Of a stretch of DNA of 64,000 nucleotides, positions 40,782 to 60,290 are shown piece by piece. The notes beneath the pieces are model-generated. The model saw only the letters and a list, made by a program, of their open reading frames with translations. It was not told where the DNA came from and searched no databases. The stretch spans positions 7,006,001 to 7,070,000 of the forward strand of contig NZ_JACHMO010000001.1 of NCBI RefSeq assembly GCF_014205015.1, written 5' to 3'. This DNA is from Saccharothrix ecbatanensis. Lineage in GTDB: Bacteria > Actinomycetota > Actinomycetes > Mycobacteriales > Pseudonocardiaceae. How positions within the stretch are numbered: position 1 is the stretch's first letter; each line of letters starts with the position of its first letter. A program made the position numbers and the translations under genes.

Positions 40782-41306
40782 ATGTCGATCGGACACACCC
40801 TGCTTGGCCTGCTGGAAAAGGGCCCGAGCCACGGATACGACCTGAAACGGGCCTACGACGAGCGCTTCGGCCAAGACCGGCCGCTGCACTACGGGCAGGT
40901 TTACACAACGCTCTCGCGGCTGCTGCGCAACGGCCTGGTCGAAGAGGCCGGAGTCGAGTCGGGCGACGGTCCGGAGCGCAAGCGGTACGCGATCACGGAC
41001 GCCGGCGTGACGGATGTGGAGCACTGGCTGGGCACGCCGGAGAAGCCGGAGCTCTACCTCCAGAACACGCTCTACTCGAAGGTAGTGCTGGCCCTGCTGT
41101 CCGGTCGCAGCGCGGACGACGTGCTCGACGTCCAGCGCGCCGCCCACCTGACCACGATGCGCGAGCTGACCAAGCGCAAGGCGCACGGCGACCTCGCCGA
41201 CCAGCTGATCTGCGACCACGCCCTGTTCCACCTGGAAGCCGACCTGCGCTGGCTGGAACTCACCGCCGCGCGCCTCGGCCAGCTGAAGCGGGCGGTGACC
41301 CGATGA
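40782..41306 (+). CDS. PadR family transcriptional regulator
   Basis: A 174-aa PadR repressor. The winged helix is at the N-terminus (SIGHTLLGLLEKGPSHGYDL, YGQVYTTLSRLLRNGLVEE, ERKRYAITDAG), with a C-terminal helical dimerisation region (residues 85-174). It is the first gene of a four-gene operon and overlaps the ABC ATPase start (ATGA). PadR regulators of this arrangement normally repress the transporter and respond to its substrate. Confidence 0.94.
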   Translation: MSIGHTLLGLLEKGPSHGYDLKRAYDERFGQDRPLHYGQVYTTLSRLLRNGLVEEAGVESGDGPERKRYAITDAGVTDVEHWLGTPEKPELYLQNTLYSKVVLALLSGRSADDVLDVQRAAHLTTMRELTKRKAHGDLADQLICDHALFHLEADLRWLELTAARLGQLKRAVTR

Positions 41307-42076
41307 GCGAAACGACACCGGACACGATGGCGGACACGGCACCCGAGACCATGGCACCAGACACGACGGCACCCGACGCGGCACCGCAGCCGGCACCCGT
41401 GAAAGCGCTGCTGGAGGCCGTCGACCTGCACAAGGCGTTCGGTCCCACGCCCGCGCTCGACGGCGCCGGACTGAGCGTGCACGCGGGCGAAGTGGTGGCC
41501 GTGATGGGTCCGTCCGGCTCGGGCAAGTCGACCCTCCTGCACTGCCTGGCCGGCATCCTCACACCGGACCGGGGCACGGTCCGCTACCGCGACGTCGAGC
41601 TGAGCGCGATGGGCGACGGTCCGCGCAGCGAGTTGCGGCGCACCGACTTCGGCTTCGTGTTCCAGTTCGGCCAGTTGGTGCCCGAGCTGACCTGCCTGGA
41701 GAACGTAGCCCTCCCGCTCCGGCTCGGTTCGGTGAAGCGCAAGGAAGCCGAGTCGCGCGCCCGCGACTGGCTGGAACGGCTGGAAGTCGCCGACGTCGCG
41801 GACAAGCGCCCCGGCGAGACGTCCGGCGGCCAAGGCCAGCGGGTCGCGGTGGCACGCGCCCTCGTGACAGGTCCGCGCGTGGTGTTCGCCGACGAACCGA
41901 CCGGCGCGCTGGACTCGCTCAACGGCGAGCGCGTGATGCAACTGCTCGTCACCGCGGCGAAGGAGACGAACGCGGCGGTCGTCCTGGTGACGCACGAACC
42001 GCGCGTCGCCGCGTACTCCGACCGCGAAATCGTGGTCCGCGACGGTCAGTCCCGCGAGATGGAGCCGACCCCGTGA
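41303..42076 (+). CDS. ABC transporter ATP-binding protein (MacB/LolD type)
   Basis: A 257-aa ATPase. A 35-residue Thr/Pro/Asp-rich extension built of TAPD/MADT-like repeats precedes the domain. Walker A is MGPSGSGKSTLL, the Q-loop FQFGQLVPELTCLENV, the signature TSGGQGQRVAVARAL (Gln-Gly in place of Gln-Gln), Walker B VVFADEPTGALDS, and the H-loop VLVTHEPRV. It overlaps padR and the first permease by four bases each. Confidence 0.95.
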   Translation: MSETTPDTMADTAPETMAPDTTAPDAAPQPAPVKALLEAVDLHKAFGPTPALDGAGLSVHAGEVVAVMGPSGSGKSTLLHCLAGILTPDRGTVRYRDVELSAMGDGPRSELRRTDFGFVFQFGQLVPELTCLENVALPLRLGSVKRKEAESRARDWLERLEVADVADKRPGETSGGQGQRVAVARALVTGPRVVFADEPTGALDSLNGERVMQLLVTAAKETNAAVVLVTHEPRVAAYSDREIVVRDGQSREMEPTP

Positions 42077-44391
42077 GGCAGTGGGTTTCCGACCTCGCGC
42101 TCGGCGTCCGGCTGGCTCTCGGCGGCGGGCGCACGTCGTGGGTCCGGCTCGTGTTGACCGGCCTGGGCATCGGCATCGGGGTGGCCGTGCTGCTGACCGC
42201 GTCCTCGGTGACGACCGTGCTGTCCGAGCGCGCCGAGCGGCAGGCCGTCCGCGAGCCGATCACCAGCGAGACGACCGGCGCGGAGCAGACTTCCGGTGAC
42301 GTCCTGTACTCGACGATGTGGGACAGCGCGTATCGGGGCGAGTCGATCGCCGGCTACTTCGTGAAGGGCAGCGGCCCGGACGCGCCCGTGCCGCCGGGCA
42401 TGTCGAGGGTGCCCGGCGACGGCGAGATCTTCGTGTCGCCCGCGCTGCGGGAGCTGCTGGAGTCACCGGAAGGCGAGCTGCTGCGCGAACGGTTCCCGCA
42501 GCAGGTGGTCGGCACGATCGACCGGGTCGGCCTGAACGCGCCGCACGACATGGTGTTCTACGCGGGTGACGCGACCCTGAAGGTGGACGGCCCGAGCGCG
42601 ATCACGGGCTTCGGCGGGGAGTTGACCGAACGCACGCTCGACCCGCTGCTGACCCTGCTGATCATCGTGGGCGTGGTCGCGCTGCTGTTCCCGGTGCTGG
42701 TGTTCGTGGGGATCAGCACCCGGTTGGCGGGGGCCGAACGGGACCGCAGGCTGGCGGCGTTGCGGCTGGTCGGCGCGGGCGCGTTCCGGGTGCGCCGGAT
42801 CGCGGCGGGCGAGTCGCTGCTGGGCGCGTTCGCCGGGCTGGCGGTGGGCACGGCGCTGTTCTTCGTGGCACGGCAATTCGTGGAGAACGTGCGGCTGGTC
42901 GGGGTCAGCGTGTTCATGGACGACCTGACCCCGTCGCTGCCTTTGGCTGTCCTGATCGCCGTGCTCGTGCCGGTCATGGCGGTGGTGACGTCGGTGGTCG
43001 CGATGCGCCACACGGTGATCGAGCCGCTGGGCGTGGTGCGTCGGGCGAAGCCGGTGCGCCGGGTGCTGTGGTGGCGGACTGTGCCGCTGATCGTCGGCGG
43101 GGTGGCGTTGATCAGCCAGTCCGGCACGCTCGGCGGTGACGAGAACCGCGCCTCCGAGTCGGTCGTGGTCGGCGGCATCCTGATGCTGCTGCTGAGCATC
43201 CCCGTTCTGCTGCCGTGGGTGGTGGAGCGCGTTGTGGGTCGCATCCGCGGCGGCGCGCCGTCGTGGCAACTCGCGATCCGCAGGCTCCAGCTGGAAAGCG
43301 GCACGGCGGCCCGGGTGGTCGGCGGCGTCGCCGTGGTCCTGGCGGGCGGCATCGCGCTCCAGTCGATCATGACCAGCGCCGAGAGCGAGATCGTGGGCTC
43401 GCCGCGGCCCGACACGGACCGGAGCCGGATGGCGATCTCCATGCAGCCGTCGACGCCGGAGTCGACCCTGCAGGCGGTCGGCATGCTGGAGCGGGCGACG
43501 GGCGTCAAACAGGTCCACACGACGTACGACCTCCTGTTCTCGGCAGCTTCGGAGCGGTTCGACTCGGCGACGGTCGGCACGTGCGAAGCCCTGAAGGTCC
43601 AGGTGGAGCTGCCGAACTGCCAGGACGGCGATTCGTTCTACGTCCAGCCAGAGACCACCTACGACAGCGGGCCCGTGCCGGTCAAACCAGGCCAGGAGGT
43701 CACGGTGTTCTCGGGGACCACCTCGACCGGCGAACCCCAGCGCGGTCCGAAGTGGACGGTGCCGGCGTACGCCGTGGTGAAGATGCCCACCGGCGCGATG
43801 GGCGTCCGGGGTCTGTTCCTCACTCCGTCCTTGGTGCGGGACCTGCCCCTCTCGTCCGGTAGCGCCACCCTCCACGTCGTGGTCGACCTGGGCGTGCCCG
43901 ACGTCGCCGAGCACGTCCGGAACGCGGTGGCGCCGATGACCTGGCGCACCTACACCTACTACATGGGCGAGGCCGCGGTGGCCCAGCGGGTGAAGGAGTT
44001 CCAGGGCATCCGCCGAGGGCTGTTGGCGGGTTCGCTGATCACGCTGCTGTTCGCGGGCGCCAGCCTGTTGGTGCTGGCCCTCGAACAGGTGCGGGAACGC
44101 AGGCGACCGCTGGCGGTGCTGGCCGCGAGCGGCGTCCCGAGAGGCGCGCTGAGCCGATCCCTGCTGTGGCAGAACGCGGTGCCGCTGGTCCTCGCGCTCG
44201 TCGTCGCAGTGGCCGTGGGAGGCAGCCTGACGGCCCTGCTGTTGCAGGTCCTCTCCCGACCCGTCGTGCTGGACTGGCCGGGTATCGGCCTGCTCAGCGC
44301 CGCCGCCGCGCTGCTGGTCGTCGTGGTGACGGCCTTGTCCCTCCCGTCCCTGCGACGGGCCACCGGCGCCCTCGGTCTCCGATCCGAGTAA
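42073..44391 (+). CDS. FtsX-like permease
   Basis: A 772-aa permease with an N-terminal transmembrane helix (VLTGLGIGIGVAVLLTASSV), an extracellular domain, and two FtsX four-helix modules (about 195-320 and 660-770). A further pair of hydrophobic segments lies in the middle (about 325-435). GTG 42073 overlaps the ATPase stop. MacB-type transporters of this topology export peptides, lipoproteins or antibiotics; the substrate is unknown. Confidence 0.92.
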   Translation: MRQWVSDLALGVRLALGGGRTSWVRLVLTGLGIGIGVAVLLTASSVTTVLSERAERQAVREPITSETTGAEQTSGDVLYSTMWDSAYRGESIAGYFVKGSGPDAPVPPGMSRVPGDGEIFVSPALRELLESPEGELLRERFPQQVVGTIDRVGLNAPHDMVFYAGDATLKVDGPSAITGFGGELTERTLDPLLTLLIIVGVVALLFPVLVFVGISTRLAGAERDRRLAALRLVGAGAFRVRRIAAGESLLGAFAGLAVGTALFFVARQFVENVRLVGVSVFMDDLTPSLPLAVLIAVLVPVMAVVTSVVAMRHTVIEPLGVVRRAKPVRRVLWWRTVPLIVGGVALISQSGTLGGDENRASESVVVGGILMLLLSIPVLLPWVVERVVGRIRGGAPSWQLAIRRLQLESGTAARVVGGVAVVLAGGIALQSIMTSAESEIVGSPRPDTDRSRMAISMQPSTPESTLQAVGMLERATGVKQVHTTYDLLFSAASERFDSATVGTCEALKVQVELPNCQDGDSFYVQPETTYDSGPVPVKPGQEVTVFSGTTSTGEPQRGPKWTVPAYAVVKMPTGAMGVRGLFLTPSLVRDLPLSSGSATLHVVVDLGVPDVAEHVRNAVAPMTWRTYTYYMGEAAVAQRVKEFQGIRRGLLAGSLITLLFAGASLLVLALEQVRERRRPLAVLAASGVPRGALSRSLLWQNAVPLVLALVVAVAVGGSLTALLLQVLSRPVVLDWPGIGLLSAAAALLVVVVTALSLPSLRRATGALGLRSE

Positions 44392-44514
44392 CCCACTCGG
44401 TAGGCCGAAGCCACGTCACCGCCCTCCACGGCGTCTCTTGATTGTGATCCCAAACCCGCACCACCCCCACCACGTCGTCCGCGGAGACGACCGGAGCACT
44501 CAGGACGCGCTCCG

Positions 44515-46722
44515 ATGAGGTGGGCCGCCGACCTGGTCCTCGGCATCCGACTGGCTGTCGGGGGCAGCCGGACGTCCTGGGCCAGGTTGGCGCTCACCGC
44601 CGCCGGTGTCGGCCTCGGCGTCACCGTCCTGCTCCTGGCCGCGTCCATCGGCCCGGCCCGCGAGGCCAAGTCCGAACGCGTCCAAGCGGCGTCCCTCACG
44701 TCGGCCACGTCGGCTCCCACCCTCAAGGCGCGGCACGTCAGCGTCTCCTGGCAAGGCCGTCTGATCACCGGCGTGGAACTGGCCGCGACCGCACCCGACG
44801 CGCCGTTGCCACCCGGCGTCGGCCGCGTCCCCAGACCGGGCGAACTGGTCGTGTCCCCCGAACTGCTCGACCTGATGCGCACCGACGACTCGGTCCGCGC
44901 CCGCTTCCCGGAGAGCGTCATCGGCGTGATCGCGGACGCCGGCCTGCCCAGACCGAAGTCCCTGATCTTCTACGCGGGCCTGCCCGACGCCCACCTCGAC
45001 ACCGCCCACCCGGCCACCGGCTTCGGCGGCGACCGGCCCCGGTCGACCCTCCTGCCGATCTACCGGCTGCTGATGGTCGCCGCGATCGGGGCGCTGCTCG
45101 TGCCGCTGGGCATCTTCATCCTGGTCGCCACCCGCCTCGGCGCGACCGGCCGTGAACAACGCCTGGCCGCGATCCGGCTGGTCGGCGCGTCCCGCAACCA
45201 GATCCGCTGGATCGCGAGCGGCGAGACGTTGACGGGGGCCGTGCTCGGGTTGTTCGTCGGCGTGGCGCTGTTCTTCGCCGCCCGGCCGCTGGCCCGGTTC
45301 ATCGAGGTCGAAGGAGTGGGCTTCTTCCCGACCGACCTGCTGCCGGACCCACTGCTCGGGGCGTTGATCGCGGTGGGCGTGCCGGTGGTCGCCGTGGTGT
45401 CGGCCCTGCTCGCCCTGCGCACGGAGGACGTCGGCCCGCTCGGGCTGTCCCGTGCCGTCGAACTCCCGAAGCACCGGGCGTGGTGGCGGTTCGGGCTGAT
45501 CGGCGCGGGCGCCCTGCTGATCGTGGTGATCACCGCGGTCGGCAGCTACTGGCAGGTGATGGAGGACCCGAGCCTCGCCGTCGGTCTCGGGATCGGCGTC
45601 ACGTTGATCCTCGCGGGCACGGGCGCGGTGCTGCCGTGGTTGGTCGGCAAGGTCGCGCACCGCCTGGAACCGGACGGCATCGCCCCGATGCTCGCCCTGC
45701 GCACCCTCCGCTTCGACGCCGGCACACCTCGCGTCCTGGCCGGTGTCGTCGTCGTGCTCACCGGGTCGTTGACGTTGCAGGTGCTGCTCGGCGTGGCGGC
45801 CCAGTTCACCGCCGCCCCACCGTCCGACACCCCGGGCCGCTGGGTGCTCGACCTGCCCGACCGCACCCCGGTCCGGTCGCTGGAGGAGGCGATCGCGCTG
45901 GTCGGCGGCGTGCGGCAGGTCAGCGAAGTGCGCGTCGCCAGTGCCGGGGGCACCGCCGTCATCAGCACCGACTGCGCCGAGATCGTCGAACGGCTGAAGG
46001 TCGAGGACTGCACGACCGGCTCCGCGTACCTGGTCGGCCCCGGCCCCGCGCCCGGCACGAAGCTGATCGTCAACGGGCAGCAGTGGACCGTGCCGCAGTA
46101 CAAGTCAGTGCCCGAGGTGTCCGAGGTGTCCGAGGTGTCCGAGCGCACGGAAGCGCTGTCCGAGGAAGCGCTGTTCGTCGCGGGCGGAGCCGATCCGGTG
46201 CTGGCGGCTATCCCGCCGATCGAGCTCGTCGTCCGGGGCGATCCGGACGAGTCCTTCGGTGACCGGTTGCTGGCCGCCACCGGCCGCGCGGACCGGGGCG
46301 TGATCCTCCGCCGTCCTGCCGGACAGGTCGAGCTGTTCACGTCCCTGCGCAGCGGCGTCATCGGCGGATCGGTGCTGCTCACCCTGCTGGCCGTGATCGG
46401 GCTCGCCGCGGCGGCCGTGGACCAGGTCTTCGAACGCCGCCGGCCCACGGCGGTGCTGGCCGCGAACGGCGTGCCGCCGAAGGTCCTCGCGGTGTCCGCG
46501 CTGTGGCAGTCCGCGATACCGGCGGCGCTCGGCATCGGGCTGGCCATCCCGATCGGTCTCGGCACGGCGTGGCTCGTGGTGCCCGCGGAGCGGTTCCGCG
46601 TCGACTGGACCGAGATCGCCACCACGGTCGCCGCGGCGGCGGTCGTCGTCCTCGTGGTGACGCTGTGCACGTTGCCGGCGCTGCGCACGGCGATCCACCC
46701 GACCAGCCTGAGAACCGAATAG
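44515..46722 (+). CDS. FtsX-like permease
   Basis: A 735-aa permease with the same layout as the preceding gene and clear local similarity (WAADLVLGIRLAVGGSRTSW versus the start of the first permease). A Glu-Val-Ser triplet, encoded by three direct GAGGTGTCC copies near 46111-46140, sits in the large extracellular domain. It starts 123 bp after the first permease, so it probably belongs to the same operon and the two permeases form a heterodimer with the single ATPase. Confidence 0.92.
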   Translation: MRWAADLVLGIRLAVGGSRTSWARLALTAAGVGLGVTVLLLAASIGPAREAKSERVQAASLTSATSAPTLKARHVSVSWQGRLITGVELAATAPDAPLPPGVGRVPRPGELVVSPELLDLMRTDDSVRARFPESVIGVIADAGLPRPKSLIFYAGLPDAHLDTAHPATGFGGDRPRSTLLPIYRLLMVAAIGALLVPLGIFILVATRLGATGREQRLAAIRLVGASRNQIRWIASGETLTGAVLGLFVGVALFFAARPLARFIEVEGVGFFPTDLLPDPLLGALIAVGVPVVAVVSALLALRTEDVGPLGLSRAVELPKHRAWWRFGLIGAGALLIVVITAVGSYWQVMEDPSLAVGLGIGVTLILAGTGAVLPWLVGKVAHRLEPDGIAPMLALRTLRFDAGTPRVLAGVVVVLTGSLTLQVLLGVAAQFTAAPPSDTPGRWVLDLPDRTPVRSLEEAIALVGGVRQVSEVRVASAGGTAVISTDCAEIVERLKVEDCTTGSAYLVGPGPAPGTKLIVNGQQWTVPQYKSVPEVSEVSEVSERTEALSEEALFVAGGADPVLAAIPPIELVVRGDPDESFGDRLLAATGRADRGVILRRPAGQVELFTSLRSGVIGGSVLLTLLAVIGLAAAAVDQVFERRRPTAVLAANGVPPKVLAVSALWQSAIPAALGIGLAIPIGLGTAWLVVPAERFRVDWTEIATTVAAAAVVVLVVTLCTLPALRTAIHPTSLRTE

Positions 46723-46777: not shown

Positions 46778-46858
46778 ACGGAACGATCGCGGGTTCCCCC
46801 GACCACACCATCGGATGGCCACGGTATCCCCAGGTCAGGCCGGGTGCTCTCAACGAGC

Positions 46859-47404
46859 ATGCAAGATCGGACCAACACTGAACTGCTCACGCTCGCCCAG
46901 GCCGGCGACGAGACCGCGTGGCACGAGATCGTCCGCCGGTACGTCCGCCTGGTCTGGGCGGTGCCGCGTTCGCACCGGCTGAACCCGGACGACGCGGCCG
47001 ACGTCTGCCAGGCCACCTGGCTGGCGCTGGCCGAGAACCTGACCCGCATCCGCCGCCCCGAGCGGCTGGGCGCGTGGCTGGTCACGACGGCCCGGCGCGA
47101 GACGCTGACCGTGCTGCGCCTGCGCGGTCGGGAGGAACCGCTCGACCTGTGGGAACCGCCCGACGACCGGCCGACACCCGAGGACGCGGCGGTGGCGGGT
47201 GACGCCGGGCCGAGGTTGTGGCGCGCGTACGCGACGTTGACGGACCGGTGCCGGGAGATCCTGCGGCTGGCGGCGTTCGCGCCGGAACTGTCGTTCACGC
47301 AGGTCGCCGAGGCGGTCGGGATCCCGGTCAACAGCCTGGGCGCGACCCGCGGCCGGTGCCTGGCCGTGTTGCGCCGACGCATCGGCGTCGAGGTGGCCCG
47401 ATGA
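46859..47404 (+). CDS. ECF-like sigma-70 family RNA polymerase sigma factor
   Basis: A 181-aa sigma factor with regions 2 and 4 only. Region 2 spans about residues 5-75 (LAQAGDETAWHEIVRRYVRL, DDAADVCQATWLALAENLTR, RLGAWLVTTARRE); region 4 spans about 125-175 (LTDRCREILRLAAFAPELSF, VAEAVGIPVNSLGATRGRCL). ATG 46859 is chosen; a GTG five codons earlier is possible. GGAAC at 46780-46784, mirrored by GTTCC at 46793-46797, resembles an ECF -35. It overlaps the next gene by ATGA. No classical anti-sigma gene is present. Confidence 0.92.
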   Translation: MQDRTNTELLTLAQAGDETAWHEIVRRYVRLVWAVPRSHRLNPDDAADVCQATWLALAENLTRIRRPERLGAWLVTTARRETLTVLRLRGREEPLDLWEPPDDRPTPEDAAVAGDAGPRLWRAYATLTDRCREILRLAAFAPELSFTQVAEAVGIPVNSLGATRGRCLAVLRRRIGVEVAR

Positions 47405-47823
47405 CCACCGACCGTGAACTCCTCGACGCCCTCGCCCACCTCGTCGACAACCTCGACCCGACACCGCGAACCCTTGCCGCGCAAGCACGATCGGCTCTCG
47501 ACGAACGCACCGGCGGGACCGCGATGCGGCTCTTGTCCGACTCGGCCCGGGTCGATCCGCCAGGCATGCGGGGCAGGGGCGGCACCCGCACGTTGGCCTT
47601 CACCGGCCTCGACCTGCGCCTCGACCACGTGACGGGTGGCCTGCACGCCACCGGGCTGGCCCGCGCCGGTGCGGTGGCGGTGGCGCGCTGGCCGGGTGGC
47701 GAGGTGACGGCCGTGATCGACCCGGCCGGCTGGTTCCACGTCGACCGCGTGCCGTTCGGGCCGGTCAGGTTCGTGCTGCGCGGTGACGGCCGTGAGCACG
47801 CCACGCCGTGGTTCGTCGCATGA
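47401..47823 (+). CDS. Unknown 140-aa protein between sigma factor and CHAT protease
   Basis: Not recognised with confidence. Residues 1-40 are helical and charged (RELLDALAHLVDNLDPTPRT). Residues 60-140 look beta-rich and resemble a carboxypeptidase-regulatory/Ig-like sandwich (VIDPAGWFHVDRVPFGPVRF). There is no signal peptide or transmembrane segment, so it is cytosolic. ATGA overlaps at both ends couple it to the sigma factor and to the CHAT protein. Its position suggests a regulator or substrate linking the two; that is inference. Confidence 0.8.
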   Translation: MTTDRELLDALAHLVDNLDPTPRTLAAQARSALDERTGGTAMRLLSDSARVDPPGMRGRGGTRTLAFTGLDLRLDHVTGGLHATGLARAGAVAVARWPGGEVTAVIDPAGWFHVDRVPFGPVRFVLRGDGREHATPWFVA

Positions 47824-49376
47824 CGCCCGACCGTTCGCTGGCCCTCGTCGGCCACGCGGAAGCGCTGCTCAACACCGGTCTGGTGCGTGAGGCGAACGTC
47901 GTGCTGCGGCAGGCGGTCAACTTCTCCCGACTGCCCGAAGCGCTGCTGCTCGCCGCACGGTGTGCGTTGCGGGACAACGACCTCACCGCGGCTCGCGCGT
48001 TGACCGACGAGGCCGAAACCCTGTTCCGCGCGGAGAACCGGCCGTCGTGGATACCGGCCGCGCAAGCCGTGGCGTTGCGTGCGGGTGCGTCCGGTTCACC
48101 TCTTGCGGTGGCCGATGCGTGCGACCGGCACGGGCACTACGACGACGCGGCCGAACTGCGACTCACCCACGCGCCCTCGCAGGCGGCGGCGCACCGGCAC
48201 CAGGGCACGTCCCGGTCCCGGGCCATCGGCTGGCTGGCCCGCGCACGGCTCGCGGAGACCCGGCGTGACGCGGTGGCCGCGTGCCGGGCCGGGTTGGCGC
48301 TGCACGACCCCGACACCCACGGAGACCTGGTGGACATCGCCCTTGACCATGCCCTGACCAGCGGCGACGCCCGATCCGCGTGGCGCTGGAGCGAACACCG
48401 ACCGGTGTGCCCGCCGGACGTCCCGCCCGAGGTCGCCTCGGTGCGCGCCGAACTGCGCCTGGCCAGGGTGCGGCGTGATCGGGACCGGATCGCACGGCTG
48501 GAACGCGAGATCCGCCGGCTCTCCCACGTCCCGCGCGTGGTCCGGCGACCGGCCGTTCCGCTGGCTGACGTGGTGGATGCGTTGGGGGACAAAGCGTTGC
48601 TGCACTTCATCAGCCATCGGGGACAGCTGCTGGCGGTGTCCGTCGCCGCCGGTCGGGTGCGGCTGCACGATTTCGGCGAAGCCCGGACGACAGGTCGGCA
48701 CGTTCGTTCGCTGTCACTCGCCGTGGCGCCGCACGCGATAGCCGACCTCGACCGCCTGCTGCGGCCGGCGGGCGACCGGCCGCTGGTGATCGTCCCGAGC
48801 CCGGAACTGGAGCGCATGCCGTGGGCCGCGCTGCCGTCCGCCGCCGGGAGGGCGTTGTCGGTGGCGCCCTCGGCGAGTTGTTGGCACCGGGCGAGCACCC
48901 GGCCGTTGGCGCTGGCGAACCGCCTCTGGGTCGCCGGGCCGAGTCTGCTGCACGCGCACCGGGAGGTGGAGGCGTTGCGGAGGACGCACGGCGGTCGTTC
49001 CTGTTCCACGGTGGACGAGACGTTGCGCGAGATGGTCCACGTGGACGTCGCGCACTTCGCCGCGCACGGCGTGCGGCAGGACGACTTGTTCTCGTACCTC
49101 CAACTGGACGACGGGCCGTTGGACGGGCACGACCTCAACGGCTTGGCGCGGGTGCCGTCGGTCGTGGTGCTGTCGGCGTGCGAGTCCGGTTTGGCGCGGG
49201 TGTTGTTGCGGCGTGGTGCGCGGGTGGTCGTGGAGAGCGTGCGGGCGGTGCCGGACGACCGGGTGGTGGACCTGATGGTCGACTTGCACGACGGCTTGGC
49301 GAACCCGGCGCAAGCGCTTGCGGACGCGCAGGCCCGACACGGTGATCTCGGCTTCGTGTGCGTTGGCGCGGGATGA
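47820..49376 (+). CDS. CHAT domain caspase-like protease with TPR-like N-terminus
   Basis: A 518-aa protein. Residues 1-235 are helical with TPR-like pairs (ALVGHAEALLNTGLVREANV, LLLAARCALRDNDLTAARAL). The CHAT domain covers about 240-518. The catalytic dyad is His416 in VAHFAAHGVRQ and Cys454 in VVLSACESGLA. The family end PAQALADAQARHGD is present. ATG 47820 overlaps the previous stop (ATGA). CHAT proteins are caspase/separase-clan peptidases; TPR-CHAT Csx29 of type III-E CRISPR cleaves a partner to free a sigma factor. There are no CRISPR genes here. Confidence 0.9.
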   Translation: MTPDRSLALVGHAEALLNTGLVREANVVLRQAVNFSRLPEALLLAARCALRDNDLTAARALTDEAETLFRAENRPSWIPAAQAVALRAGASGSPLAVADACDRHGHYDDAAELRLTHAPSQAAAHRHQGTSRSRAIGWLARARLAETRRDAVAACRAGLALHDPDTHGDLVDIALDHALTSGDARSAWRWSEHRPVCPPDVPPEVASVRAELRLARVRRDRDRIARLEREIRRLSHVPRVVRRPAVPLADVVDALGDKALLHFISHRGQLLAVSVAAGRVRLHDFGEARTTGRHVRSLSLAVAPHAIADLDRLLRPAGDRPLVIVPSPELERMPWAALPSAAGRALSVAPSASCWHRASTRPLALANRLWVAGPSLLHAHREVEALRRTHGGRSCSTVDETLREMVHVDVAHFAAHGVRQDDLFSYLQLDDGPLDGHDLNGLARVPSVVVLSACESGLARVLLRRGARVVVESVRAVPDDRVVDLMVDLHDGLANPAQALADAQARHGDLGFVCVGAG

Positions 49377-49690: not shown

Positions 49691-50713
49691 GTGGCTGTCT
49701 CCGACGCGGTGCGCCGCAGCGGGTCGGCGCTGCTCCGGGCGCTCGCCGTCGGCGGGTTGGCCACGGCGGCCTGGCTCGCGTGCGCCGGGCTCGCCTCGGC
49801 CGGCGAAGATCACCCGGACGAGATCGCGACGACGCTCGACGCGGTGAACGTGGCGCTGGGCGAGCAGCAGTCGGCCACCGCCGACCCACTGCTCGCCGAC
49901 CCACTGGCGTCCGACCCGCTGCTAGCCGACCTGCCGGCGTCCGACCTGCTCGGCCTCCCGACGTTCGACCACAGTGCCTTCGCAGCGGACTGCCGCCCCT
50001 TCGACGGCCCCCTGGACGGCCGCCTCGACCGCCCACTCGCGGTCAACGAGCGCCCGTTCGAAGCCGCCCTCGAAGTCGGGTTGCCGTCCCTGCTGGACGC
50101 ACCGTCGACCGACGACTCACGCGCTCCGCACTCCGATCCGTACTCCACCCCGTACTCCGACCCGAACGCGGACGCGCCGTACGCCGATCCGTACGAGGAC
50201 GACGAGTACACCCACCCCGGATTCACGTCCGGGAGCAGCAACTACAGCCACTCGGGCTCGGTGTCGAACACCATGCCCGCCCCGCTGTACGAGGCGAAGG
50301 TGGCCGCGAAGGCAGCGGCCCGGGCAGCAGCTTCGGCGCCGCCCGTCGCACTGCCGCCCCCGACGGCAGCTCCAGCCCCGACGGCCGTTCGCGCAACCGC
50401 ACTGGCCGGCTTGGACCTGCTGCCCGTATCCGCTTCACCGGTCTCCCAGACCACGTCGAACGCCGACGTGGTCTGGGAGGTGCCGAACCCCAGTGCCCCC
50501 GCACCCACGCCGAACCAGGCGCCGGCGCCCAGTGCGCCGACTGCGTCGTCTTCGAGCAGTGCGGACAGCGGTGGTGGTCACCGCGGTGGCCTCATCGCGT
50601 CGTTCAGCAGCCAGTCCGACCCGAAGCCGTTGGCGGCGTGGTCGACCGAGCGGTGGGACGGCGGGCGATCTCCAGGCAGCGTTCCCGGGCTGCCCAGCAC
50701 GTCACCCGACTGA
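49691..50713 (+). CDS. Secreted low-complexity protein
   Basis: A 340-aa exported protein of unknown family. The signal peptide (residues 1-37) ends ACAGLASA. The mature part has PLLADPLASDPLLADL repeats, a DPYSTPYSDPNADAPYADPY stretch, an Ala/Pro-rich linker and a Ser/Gly-rich end. It has no cysteine pattern and no enzyme motif. A 16-bp perfect inverted repeat lies within its coding sequence at 50443-50479. GTG 49691 has only weak upstream Shine-Dalgarno potential. Confidence 0.75.
   Translation: MAVSDAVRRSGSALLRALAVGGLATAAWLACAGLASAGEDHPDEIATTLDAVNVALGEQQSATADPLLADPLASDPLLADLPASDLLGLPTFDHSAFAADCRPFDGPLDGRLDRPLAVNERPFEAALEVGLPSLLDAPSTDDSRAPHSDPYSTPYSDPNADAPYADPYEDDEYTHPGFTSGSSNYSHSGSVSNTMPAPLYEAKVAAKAAARAAASAPPVALPPPTAAPAPTAVRATALAGLDLLPVSASPVSQTTSNADVVWEVPNPSAPAPTPNQAPAPSAPTASSSSSADSGGGHRGGLIASFSSQSDPKPLAAWSTERWDGGRSPGSVPGLPSTSPD
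50443..50479 (+). other. Long perfect inverted repeat inside a coding sequence
   Basis: Bases 50443-50458 pair with 50464-50479 over 16 bp without mismatch, leaving a 5-base loop AACGC. It lies about 80 codons before the stop of the secreted-protein gene. Confidence 0.9.
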
Positions 50714-52804: not shown

Positions 52805-53434
52805 ATGCTCGCCGCACTCACCCAGGTCCCGGTCACCGTCTCGCCGCTCCGCCGCATCCCCCAACTCCTCGCCGGGCTCTGGCTCTACGGCGCGAGCATG
52901 GCGCTCCAGATCCGCGCCACCCTCGGCCTCGACCCGTGGGACGTGCTGCACGAGGGCCTGACCAAGATCACCGGCTTGTCCTTCGGCACGATCACCGCGC
53001 TCGTCGGCCTCGTGGTCCTGCTCTGCTGGATCCCGCTCAGACAGAGACCCGGCGTCGGCACGATCAGCAACGTGATCGTCATCGGCGTCGCGGTGGACGT
53101 CAGCCTGGCCATCCTGCCGAACCCGGTCGAACTCCTGCCGCGCATCCTCTTCCTCACCGCCGGCATCGTGCTGAACGGCGTGGCCGCCGCCGTCTACATC
53201 GGAGCCCGCCTCGGCCCCGGCCCGCGCGACGGCCTGACGACCGGCTTCTGCGCGCGGACCGGGACCTCGTTGCGCCTGGTCCGAACCGTCGTGGAACTGA
53301 CCGTGCTGGCGATCGGCTGGCTCCTCGGCGGCACGATCGGCGTGGGCACGGTCCTCTACGCCGTCACGATCGGGCCACTGACCCAGGCGTTCCTCCCCCT
53401 GGTCACCTGGGCGAACGAGCGACCCGCTTCCTGA
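52805..53434 (+). CDS. YczE family (YitT-like) integral membrane protein
   Basis: A 209-aa membrane protein with five to six transmembrane helices (LLAGLWLYGASMALQI, FGTITALVGLVVLLCWI, FLTAGIVLNGVAAAVYI, LTVLAIGWLLGGTIGVG). The ARLGPGPRDGLTTGFC loop is the family signature. GAAGGA lies seven bases before ATG 52805. Its divergence from a MocR gene is a repeated association, suggesting the regulator controls it. The transported substrate is unknown. The last 32 bases overlap the convergent Clp-N gene. Confidence 0.88.
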   Translation: MLAALTQVPVTVSPLRRIPQLLAGLWLYGASMALQIRATLGLDPWDVLHEGLTKITGLSFGTITALVGLVVLLCWIPLRQRPGVGTISNVIVIGVAVDVSLAILPNPVELLPRILFLTAGIVLNGVAAAVYIGARLGPGPRDGLTTGFCARTGTSLRLVRTVVELTVLAIGWLLGGTIGVGTVLYAVTIGPLTQAFLPLVTWANERPAS

Positions 53435-53936
53435 CCTCCGTGTAACTCACCCCGCGCGCCTCCAGCACCTCGGCCACCAACCCGCGCTCGGCCAGCAGCG
53501 CCAACAACAGGTGCTCCTGGCCGAGCGTGCCGTGGCCGAGCTCGCGTGCCTCGACCAGGCTGCGCACCAACGTGTTCTTCGCCGCTGCCGTGAACGGCAG
53601 GTGGTTGCCGAAGAACCGCCGCCGACGTCGTGGCGCACCGGCCAGCGCACCTTCACCGTGCGACCGTTCGACCGACGCCACGATCTGGTCGACGTCGATT
53701 CCCAGGCCTCGCAATGCCTCGGTGTCGGCGTCGCTGAGCCCGCCCTTGCGCCGTGCCGCCGCGAACGCGTCGACCACTTCGTCGCGTGGCAGCGCGAACT
53801 CGGCCAGCACGGGCGCGTCGAGCAGCGCCAACGCCAGGTGTTCGGGCCCGATCTCGGACGAGTCGAGCCGTTCGGCCTGCACCACCGCCTCGTGGACGGT
53901 CTGGCGCGCGGCCCTGGTGAACCGTTCCCCGATCAT
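53403..53936 (-). CDS. Double Clp N-domain protein
   Basis: A 177-aa protein made of two Clp_N modules: residues 1-70 (FTRAARQTVHEAVVQAERLD, IGPEHLALALLDAP) and 105-175 (FTAAAKNTLVRSLVEARELG, LGQEHLLLALLAERGLVAEV). There is no AAA domain, so it is a stand-alone adaptor-like protein that may compete for or deliver ClpC/ClpB substrates. ATG 53936 overlaps the HTH gene stop (ATGA). Confidence 0.9.
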   Translation of the reverse strand: MIGERFTRAARQTVHEAVVQAERLDSSEIGPEHLALALLDAPVLAEFALPRDEVVDAFAAARRKGGLSDADTEALRGLGIDVDQIVASVERSHGEGALAGAPRRRRRFFGNHLPFTAAAKNTLVRSLVEARELGHGTLGQEHLLLALLAERGLVAEVLEARGVSYTEVRKRVARSPR

Positions 53937-54145
53937 CGGTCTCCCCCGTGCTTCTTGTGGACGGCCTGCCGGGTGACCCCGAGTTCGGCCGCGATCTCCT
54001 GCCAGGACCAGCCGCGGGCACGAGCGTTGCGCACCTGCACGACTTCGAGTGTTTCCAGTAGTCGGCGCAGCGCGCTCACCGCTCGCAGCCCGACCCTGGG
54101 GTCTTGGTCGCCCGCCGCCGAGGCGAGCTCGGTTGCCTCCGTCAT
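53933..54145 (-). CDS. Small helix-turn-helix protein
   Basis: A 70-aa protein whose second half is an HTH resembling sigma region 4/RpiR-type helices: ARGWSWQEIAAELGVTRQAV followed by HKKHGGDR. ATG 54145 is just inside two GTCAAC-N4-GTTGAC palindromes in the divergent promoter region, which are its likely targets. It is coupled to the double Clp-N gene, a pairing I recall in other actinomycetes. Confidence 0.85.
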   Translation of the reverse strand: MTEATELASAAGDQDPRVGLRAVSALRRLLETLEVVQVRNARARGWSWQEIAAELGVTRQAVHKKHGGDR

Positions 54146-60110: not shown

Positions 60111-60290
60111 GTCCTGAGCGTTGAATTCAGGGGTCCTGAACGTAGGACACGGTGGTCCTGAACGTACGACTCACGCGTTCTGAACGTAGGACTCACGCGG
60201 GTTGGGGGTGAGTCCTACGTTCGGTGCGGGTGAGTCCTACGTTCGGAACGACCGTGTCCTACGTTCGGAACGGGTGAATTCAACGCTCGG
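60111..60290. repeat. Mirrored pair of 22-bp tandem repeat arrays C
   Basis: Plus-strand units at 60114-60135, 60136-60157, 60158-60179 and 60180-60201 follow the excalibur gene. An inverted array of four 22-bp units (about 60209-60289) runs back from the opposing ATPase gene. Each array, read from its gene's 3' end, has the GAATTC unit first, then GGACAC, then GACTC units. The GAGCGTTGA of the inverted array supplies the ATPase stop codon (60280-60282). Confidence 0.93.

Follow-up and report, generated by a model that had tools for sequence, protein, structure and literature searches.

The genome of Saccharothrix ecbatanensis (phylum Actinomycetota, family Pseudonocardiaceae; 9.69 Mb) carries a compact operon of three genes on the forward strand, within the 64,000-nucleotide stretch analysed here (the window; 7006001-7070000 of contig NZ_JACHMO010000001.1). 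These genes encode an extracytoplasmic function (ECF) sigma factor of 181 amino acids (window positions 46859-47404), a small middle protein of 140 amino acids (47401-47823), and a cysteine protease of 518 amino acids that joins tetratricopeptide-like (TPR) repeats to a CHAT domain (47820-49376). All three frames are open, and adjacent genes overlap by ATGA at 47401-47404 and 47820-47823, as an initial annotation made from the letters alone had described. Central to this report is a single residue of the middle protein, Arg57 (codon 47569-47571, forward strand), a predicted cut site whose conservation across the phylum, and co-loss with the protease within the genus, mark the middle protein, a predicted sigma partner, as a likely CHAT substrate.

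The sigma factor is recognised by Pfam through Sigma70_r2 (E 7.7e-11), with a weak region 4 match below cut-off (E 0.018), and by the NCBIfam sigma70-ECF model (67 bits, cut-off 42.9). The initial annotation had reported no anti-sigma gene, and we find none of a known anti-sigma family among the neighboring genes scanned at the window locus. It had also called the middle protein unrecognised, in keeping with the lack of any Pfam, NCBIfam, or PADLOC family match. The structural model of this protein (predicted local distance difference test, pLDDT, 87.3) consists of a pair of helices connected to a beta-sandwich through a loose linker that holds Arg57; the residue lies in the least certain part of the model (mean pLDDT 55 over residues 51-60). 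CarboxypepD_reg matches 15 of 42 middle-family members at E up to 0.1; the best match, at locus L099 (E 1.6e-7), scores 32 bits where the cut-off is 32.3, and the window protein matches nothing.

The protease carries its CHAT domain (PF12770, E 3.7e-21) at residues 307-505, and the only PADLOC match is a weak one, to BovA, that covers the active-site stretch (E 2e-5). Its model combines helical repeats with a caspase-like domain, and Csx29 is a structural match over the whole of it, with the same fold. At the level of family, no TPR is detected by Pfam in the window CHAT protein; of two longer relatives, L075 has a TPR_12 match above cut-off and L088 one below it. The catalytic pair, previously predicted to be intact, is invariant together with His412 in an alignment of 15 CHAT proteins. 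Among 87 CHAT proteins, His416 (codon 49065-49067, forward strand) and Cys454 (49179-49181, forward strand) are each present in 86, with one gap. Six CHAT calls have no readable His or Cys (L086, L102, L131, L171, L187, and L262), probably because the contig stops, the frame is broken, or the alignment has a gap; the Arg is present at all six loci, and we draw no inference from them. Between the window and its relative L079, the ratio of nonsynonymous to synonymous substitution rates (dN/dS) is 0.15 for sigma, 0.24 for the middle protein, and 0.19 for CHAT.

The middle protein occurs in 46 of 150 family genomes by single-sequence search and in at least 33 of 396 phylum genomes by a 15-row profile (nine candidates scored per genome); its named relatives come from Saccharothrix and Actinosynnema. 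Loci were annotated with profiles built here and later rebuilt, in three samples that share some genomes. The middle-anchored sample drew on 22 of 53 family places and 35 of 38 phylum places, giving 56 loci, or 55 without L126 of the window genome itself. These 55 hold sigma, middle, CHAT, and a subtilase (S8) together at 30 loci, sigma and middle at 11, sigma, middle, and CHAT at nine, the middle gene alone at four, and S8, middle, and CHAT at one. The sigma-anchored sample comprises the best 80 of at least 164 sigma matches: all four genes at 48, sigma alone at 11, sigma, middle, and CHAT at 10, sigma and middle at 10, and S8, sigma, and middle at one, which places CHAT at 58 of the 80 and the subtilase at 49. 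The CHAT-anchored sample took 40 places, one per genome from the top, skipping the window genome and five genomes already fetched; it yields all four genes at 27, sigma, middle, and CHAT at seven, S8 and CHAT at three, S8, middle, and CHAT at one, and CHAT alone at two, both at contig ends. With sigma and middle genes at 34 of these 40 loci, the grouping is not chance; a genome search for the three genes together was the check that the initial annotation had set, and its expectation is borne out. Rebuilt profiles give no locus with sigma and CHAT and without a middle gene (0 of 58 in the best-80 sigma-anchored sample, 0 of 34 in the CHAT-anchored sample). Under the first profiles, S8, sigma, and CHAT lacked a recognised middle at four of the 80 sigma-anchored loci and one of 56 others, and none remained after the rebuild.

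The subtilase is absent beside the window genes and is often part of the module elsewhere, a feature that the initial annotation had missed. In the window genome, the best S8 match is that of the paralogous locus at 5.34 Mb, with 41% identity. Several genomes have the set split, with sigma and middle at one place and CHAT and subtilase at another (L099/L243 and L107/L248). Partial correlations of evolutionary distance over 98 single-copy loci, which are not phylogenetically controlled, reach 0.52 for CHAT and S8, 0.38 for sigma and CHAT, 0.37 for sigma and middle, and 0.32 for middle and CHAT, and are near zero between S8 and either sigma or middle; the same pattern holds in bootstrap ranges and in a set thinned to 65. 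Tandem units of middle, CHAT, and S8, some without a sigma gene of their own, are found at L121 and L123; the middle protein can accompany proteases without sigma. The window genome also harbors a second complete copy (L075, 5332637-5337765), where a gene for an 840-residue CHAT protein stands back to back with subtilase, sigma, and middle genes, and a third copy near 7.943 Mb (L126), a sigma and middle pair.

Across the phylum, position 57 of the middle protein is Arg in 103 of 105 aligned sequences and in all 83 with CHAT at the locus; where CHAT is absent from the locus, the position is Arg in 20, Ser in two, and deleted in one. The surroundings of the residue are also constrained: Val precedes it in 69 of the 103, and Gly, Ser, or Ala follows in 93. 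Automatic alignment placed a gap or Pro at this position in three CHAT-bearing loci (L173, L183, and L211); on inspection, the linkers of the first two hold an Arg, and L211 stops at its contig end. Thirteen genomes have Arg57 without CHAT at the locus and carry CHAT elsewhere: seven are those of L164, L212, L166, L167, and L159, plus G482 and G617, and the other six are G522, G724, G732, G552, G659, and G592. Five genomes have a middle protein and no close CHAT. One of these, the genome of L182, belongs to a distant genus, has Ser at position 57 and no CHAT of this family at 1e-20, and is the one of the five that has lost the Arg.

The genus itself provides natural knock-outs. We searched 25 genus genomes and found the orthologous locus in 22; G316 and G809 (no match) and G353 (one weak match, in an 8367-residue frame) were left out. 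So were the paralogous copies L315-L317, in which an Arg persists and the fetched stretch shows no CHAT. At 13 of the 22 loci, CHAT is full length and has both catalytic residues. The other nine comprise six without a CHAT gene in the stretch fetched and three with a CHAT domain alone (297-298 amino acids); these relics have lost the TPR part, and His416 is replaced by Asp (L303), Gly (L304), and Leu (L307), with Cys454 also changed to Gly in L304. Counted without alignment, a linker Arg-Gly is present at 13 of 13 loci with intact CHAT versus none of the nine with CHAT lost or His-dead. Eight of the nine knock-out linkers measure 12-16 residues rather than 20-21 (4-9 shorter), and the ninth, L311, has Ser for Arg. 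In a MAFFT alignment, 122 columns are invariant among the 13 intact loci (80 in sigma, 42 in the middle protein), and Arg57 alone is changed in all nine knock-outs. On a genus tree built from sigma, an FtsX permease, and a GntR-type aminotransferase, the state of CHAT changes three times, and by the MAFFT alignment the site is lost on each occasion. The subtilase is absent from the stretch fetched at eight of the 13 CHAT-intact loci, all with the site kept, so the site follows CHAT and not the subtilase.

These columns bear on two other readings of the operon. In the first, which is the reading in print for the sigma group ECF54, the proteases degrade the sigma factor itself and so keep it off; a passage of the review PMC8999054 proposes this from gene context. 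No sigma column follows the loss of CHAT: none of the 80 that are invariant among the 13 is changed in four or more of the nine, and sigma Arg91 is kept in eight of the nine CHAT-less or CHAT-dead loci and is Lys in one. We therefore regard degradation of sigma as very unlikely at this operon. In the second reading, CHAT and the subtilase are end effectors made by sigma, for example cell-death proteases, and the association of CHAT with the linker arose by drift within lineages. Units of CHAT and S8 do stand apart from sigma and middle (L243, L245, L247, L248, L253, L269, L277, and L281), and only three losses back the CHAT-linker link. A single perfectly associated column among 122, plus the co-loss at L182 in a distant genus, would be hard to obtain by drift, and we consider this reading quite improbable.

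Judging from these alignments, we think it fairly probable that the three genes make up a switch: a dedicated ECF sigma factor, its small partner, and a TPR-CHAT protease resembling Csx29, whose cut after Arg57 of the partner would switch the sigma factor. A linker site that tracks the active site of the protease fits a middle protein that would serve as CHAT substrate. The largest CHAT-less clade of the genus also speaks for this reading: dN/dS for the middle protein is 0.59 there versus 0.38 in its active sisters, and sigma does not relax (six loci each, no significance test). So do the Csx29 structural match, the co-loss at L182, the thirteen genomes with CHAT elsewhere, the lack of loci with sigma and CHAT and no middle gene, and the distance correlations that tie sigma, middle, and CHAT to one another and S8 to CHAT alone. 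We infer sigma binding, cleavage and its direction, autoregulation, and the role of the subtilase as follows. The N-terminal helices of the middle protein would hold sigma, and the beta-sandwich would tether the complex or sense a signal. A signal read by the TPR repeats would activate CHAT, which would cut at Arg57 and part the helices from the beta-sandwich; the activity of sigma would then change, most likely through release, and sigma would drive its own operon. Subtilases of many relatives may act together with CHAT; the window locus has no subtilase gene.

A conserved arginine in a flexible linker could also be a docking site rather than a cut site, with the linker binding CHAT so as to inhibit or position it. 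Such a binding motif would give much the same conservation and co-loss, and some protease inhibitors bind as pseudo-substrates. Cleavage is favored by the narrowness of the conservation (Arg with a small residue after it, in a flexible linker) and by the three readable CHAT relics, which lost the catalytic His, so that catalysis went with the site; the TPR part was lost there too. Docking is, in our judgment, unlikely.

Several observations weigh against cleavage at Arg57 as the switch. The window CHAT is about 340 N-terminal residues shorter than most relatives and lacks a loop of about 12 residues after Cys454 that is usual among them. No similarity of the middle protein to Csx30 or to families of anti-sigma factors could be detected. 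Outside the genus, a loose, alignment-free test for Arg plus a small residue anywhere in the linker gives 81 of 83 with CHAT and 22 of 23 without, and does not separate the two classes because other arginines lie nearby; all nine knock-out linkers keep one to three other arginines. The L314 linker, about nine residues shorter and without Arg-Gly, has one Arg that profile alignment places at position 57, so the count by that method is eight of nine and not nine of nine. With three pairs, the sign test gives p 0.25 and cannot pass 0.05; the strength of the co-loss thus lies in its specificity and not in its count. Among the genomes without a close CHAT, G329 and G362 have a shorter linker that still holds arginines, and G689 and G793 keep the Arg, with no close CHAT found in drafts of hundreds of contigs. 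Conversely, L137 has Ser at position 57 although other, paralogous CHATs remain in its genome, so any link of the site would be to the cognate protease.

The persistence of sigma and middle in CHAT-less lineages, mostly with the element upstream of sigma, is a further difficulty. It is not predicted by a simple model in which cleavage releases sigma; there must be some input besides CHAT, and cleavage could act in a direction other than release. The cleavage-switched sigma factor put forward in the initial annotation survives in part: the three genes are kept together, the protease has the Csx29 fold, and the linker site does follow the CHAT active site, and pairs of sigma and middle without CHAT are unexpected under simple release. 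These pairs would suit the opposite direction, with a middle protein that assists or stabilises sigma and a cut at Arg57 that shuts the pathway down. The pair is kept without CHAT as if self-sufficient, with mostly the same upstream element and with the constraint on sigma unchanged (dN/dS 0.31-0.32 in the largest CHAT-less clade and its active sisters alike). The genomes of L089 and L091 also retain a sigma and middle pair with no close CHAT. Against this, small proteins encoded beside ECF sigma factors more often hold the sigma factor than help it. In the solved analogue, moreover, the CHAT substrate is a sigma inhibitor, according to the part of PMC10028731 that describes it. We hold the opposite direction to be somewhat unlikely.

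If cleavage switches sigma, its output may include its own operon. A promoter- or operator-like element of 26 nucleotides (CCACACCATCGGATGGCCACGGTATC; 46803-46828, forward strand) lies about 55 nucleotides before the sigma gene; it is conserved in the genus, has a single exact copy genome-wide, and fits autoregulation by sigma as its putative function. It is present at seven of the eight CHAT-less or CHAT-dead genus loci viewed (not seen in L314) and also at L081. An expectation-maximization (EM) search for the sigma element gave a motif log-likelihood of 170.8 versus 80.7, 95.6, and 89.4 in three shuffles, which were run with 20 seeds versus 40 for the real set. An element score of at least 10 occurs upstream of sigma in 35 of 80 cases, of S8 in two of 49, and of CHAT in two of 33, at a shuffled rate of 0.02-0.03; a separate EM run on S8 upstream regions found a similar word in about a third. 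The word GTATCA is enriched upstream, with no constant partner word visible. Two element-derived patterns, searched genome-wide, revealed no regulon beyond the operon, which also counts against the proposal. They fell at eight places versus one in the control and at 25 versus 21, and most of the 15 places with surroundings listed lie within genes, so we rejected a regulon claim.

Directly upstream of the operon and on the same strand, 40782-46722 encodes a PadR regulator, an ABC ATPase, and two FtsX permeases; this block is syntenic with the operon across the genus, and the locus sits in stable chromosomal synteny. An anti-phage role had been offered as one option by the initial annotation, and nothing at the locus points there. 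Downstream, 49691-50713 encodes an Ala/Pro-rich protein of 340 amino acids whose N-terminus is hydrophobic and which matches nothing in Pfam; its locus-adjacent relatives in the genus have a similar C-terminal end (GSVPGLPSTSPD in many). On the reverse strand, 53403-54145 holds an overlapping pair, a 177-residue protein that matches solely the Clp N-terminal domain and a small helix-turn-helix-like protein, which is near the locus in several other genus loci as well. A diverged array of 22-nucleotide repeats of the GTCCTGAACGTA-type and GTCCTACGTTCGG-type occupies 60111-60290. As to the protease itself, the loop after Cys454 is also missing in a clade of relatives, most with a convergent or absent subtilase. 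Action of the subtilase on this loop was considered and rejected: short loops go with a convergent S8 gene in nine of 11 cases, yet 22 of 27 S8-less CHATs keep the loop.

The closest described context is that of ECF54, a group of actinobacterial ECF sigma factors, which the initial annotation had overlooked. For this group, proteolysis has been proposed since carboxypeptidase, subtilase, and CHAT proteins are encoded nearby, as stated in a passage of PMC8999054 that cites Huang 2015 and Casas-Pastor 2021. The system described here shares an ECF sigma factor without a recognised anti-sigma and, near the sigma gene of relatives, CHAT, subtilase, and CarboxypepD_reg-like genes, a likeness drawn from gene context and general ECF families; it differs in that no subtilase lies beside the window genes. 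We suggest that the ECF54 "carboxypeptidase" may be the small beta-sandwich middle protein and not an enzyme. Unlike the published reading, the comparisons made here point to the middle protein, and not sigma, as the CHAT target. The gene context was already known; what is new is the small protein as candidate CHAT target, together with its site. For this gene context, none of the titles and abstracts found mentions the middle protein or a substrate of CHAT, which is no proof of novelty. A sigma class without a known anti-sigma thereby gains a specific, single-residue switching hypothesis, the idea of nearby peptidases acting on sigma becomes a testable claim on another protein, and the natural knock-outs offer a ready control for Arg57.

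In type III-E systems of clustered regularly interspaced short palindromic repeats (CRISPR), Csx29 cuts Csx30, the inhibitor of CASP-sigma, as reported in the part of PMC10028731 that deals with these proteins. The window operon resembles these systems in its TPR-CHAT protease with catalytic His and Cys. It differs in a middle protein unlike Csx30 by sequence and, often, in a subtilase partner. Membership in type III-E is not borne out: there is neither a cas-like gene among the neighbors scanned nor a CRISPR-like array within 30000-64000, the search being confined to these surroundings of the locus. Among the matches of a middle-family profile (E up to 10) there is no chain of Csx30, and none appears in the Foldseek top 50, which does not exclude homology. 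The proposed switch suggests that control of transcription by CHAT proteases extends beyond CRISPR. A broader view, possible and at present doubtful, is that of a CRISPR-free Craspase across the phylum, in which a subtilase would activate a TPR-CHAT protease whose cut at a single invariant arginine of an anti-sigma-like protein releases an ECF sigma factor; Csx29, Csx30, and their sigma factor would then form one branch of an older CHAT-to-sigma design.

Three other known systems also bear comparison. DdvA, the anti-sigma of DdvS in Myxococcus (PDB 8rw5 and 8rot), is transmembrane by PDB title, whereas the protein with the His/Cys pair is here encoded by a separate gene. Separase is a eukaryotic cohesin protease with no sigma context. 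In the EACC2-caspase systems, too, a caspase-type protein, an ECF sigma factor, and a TPR gene are proposed as one signaling unit, in a passage of PMC8195603; compared by description, these systems have other constant domains (EACC2 and DUF1822).

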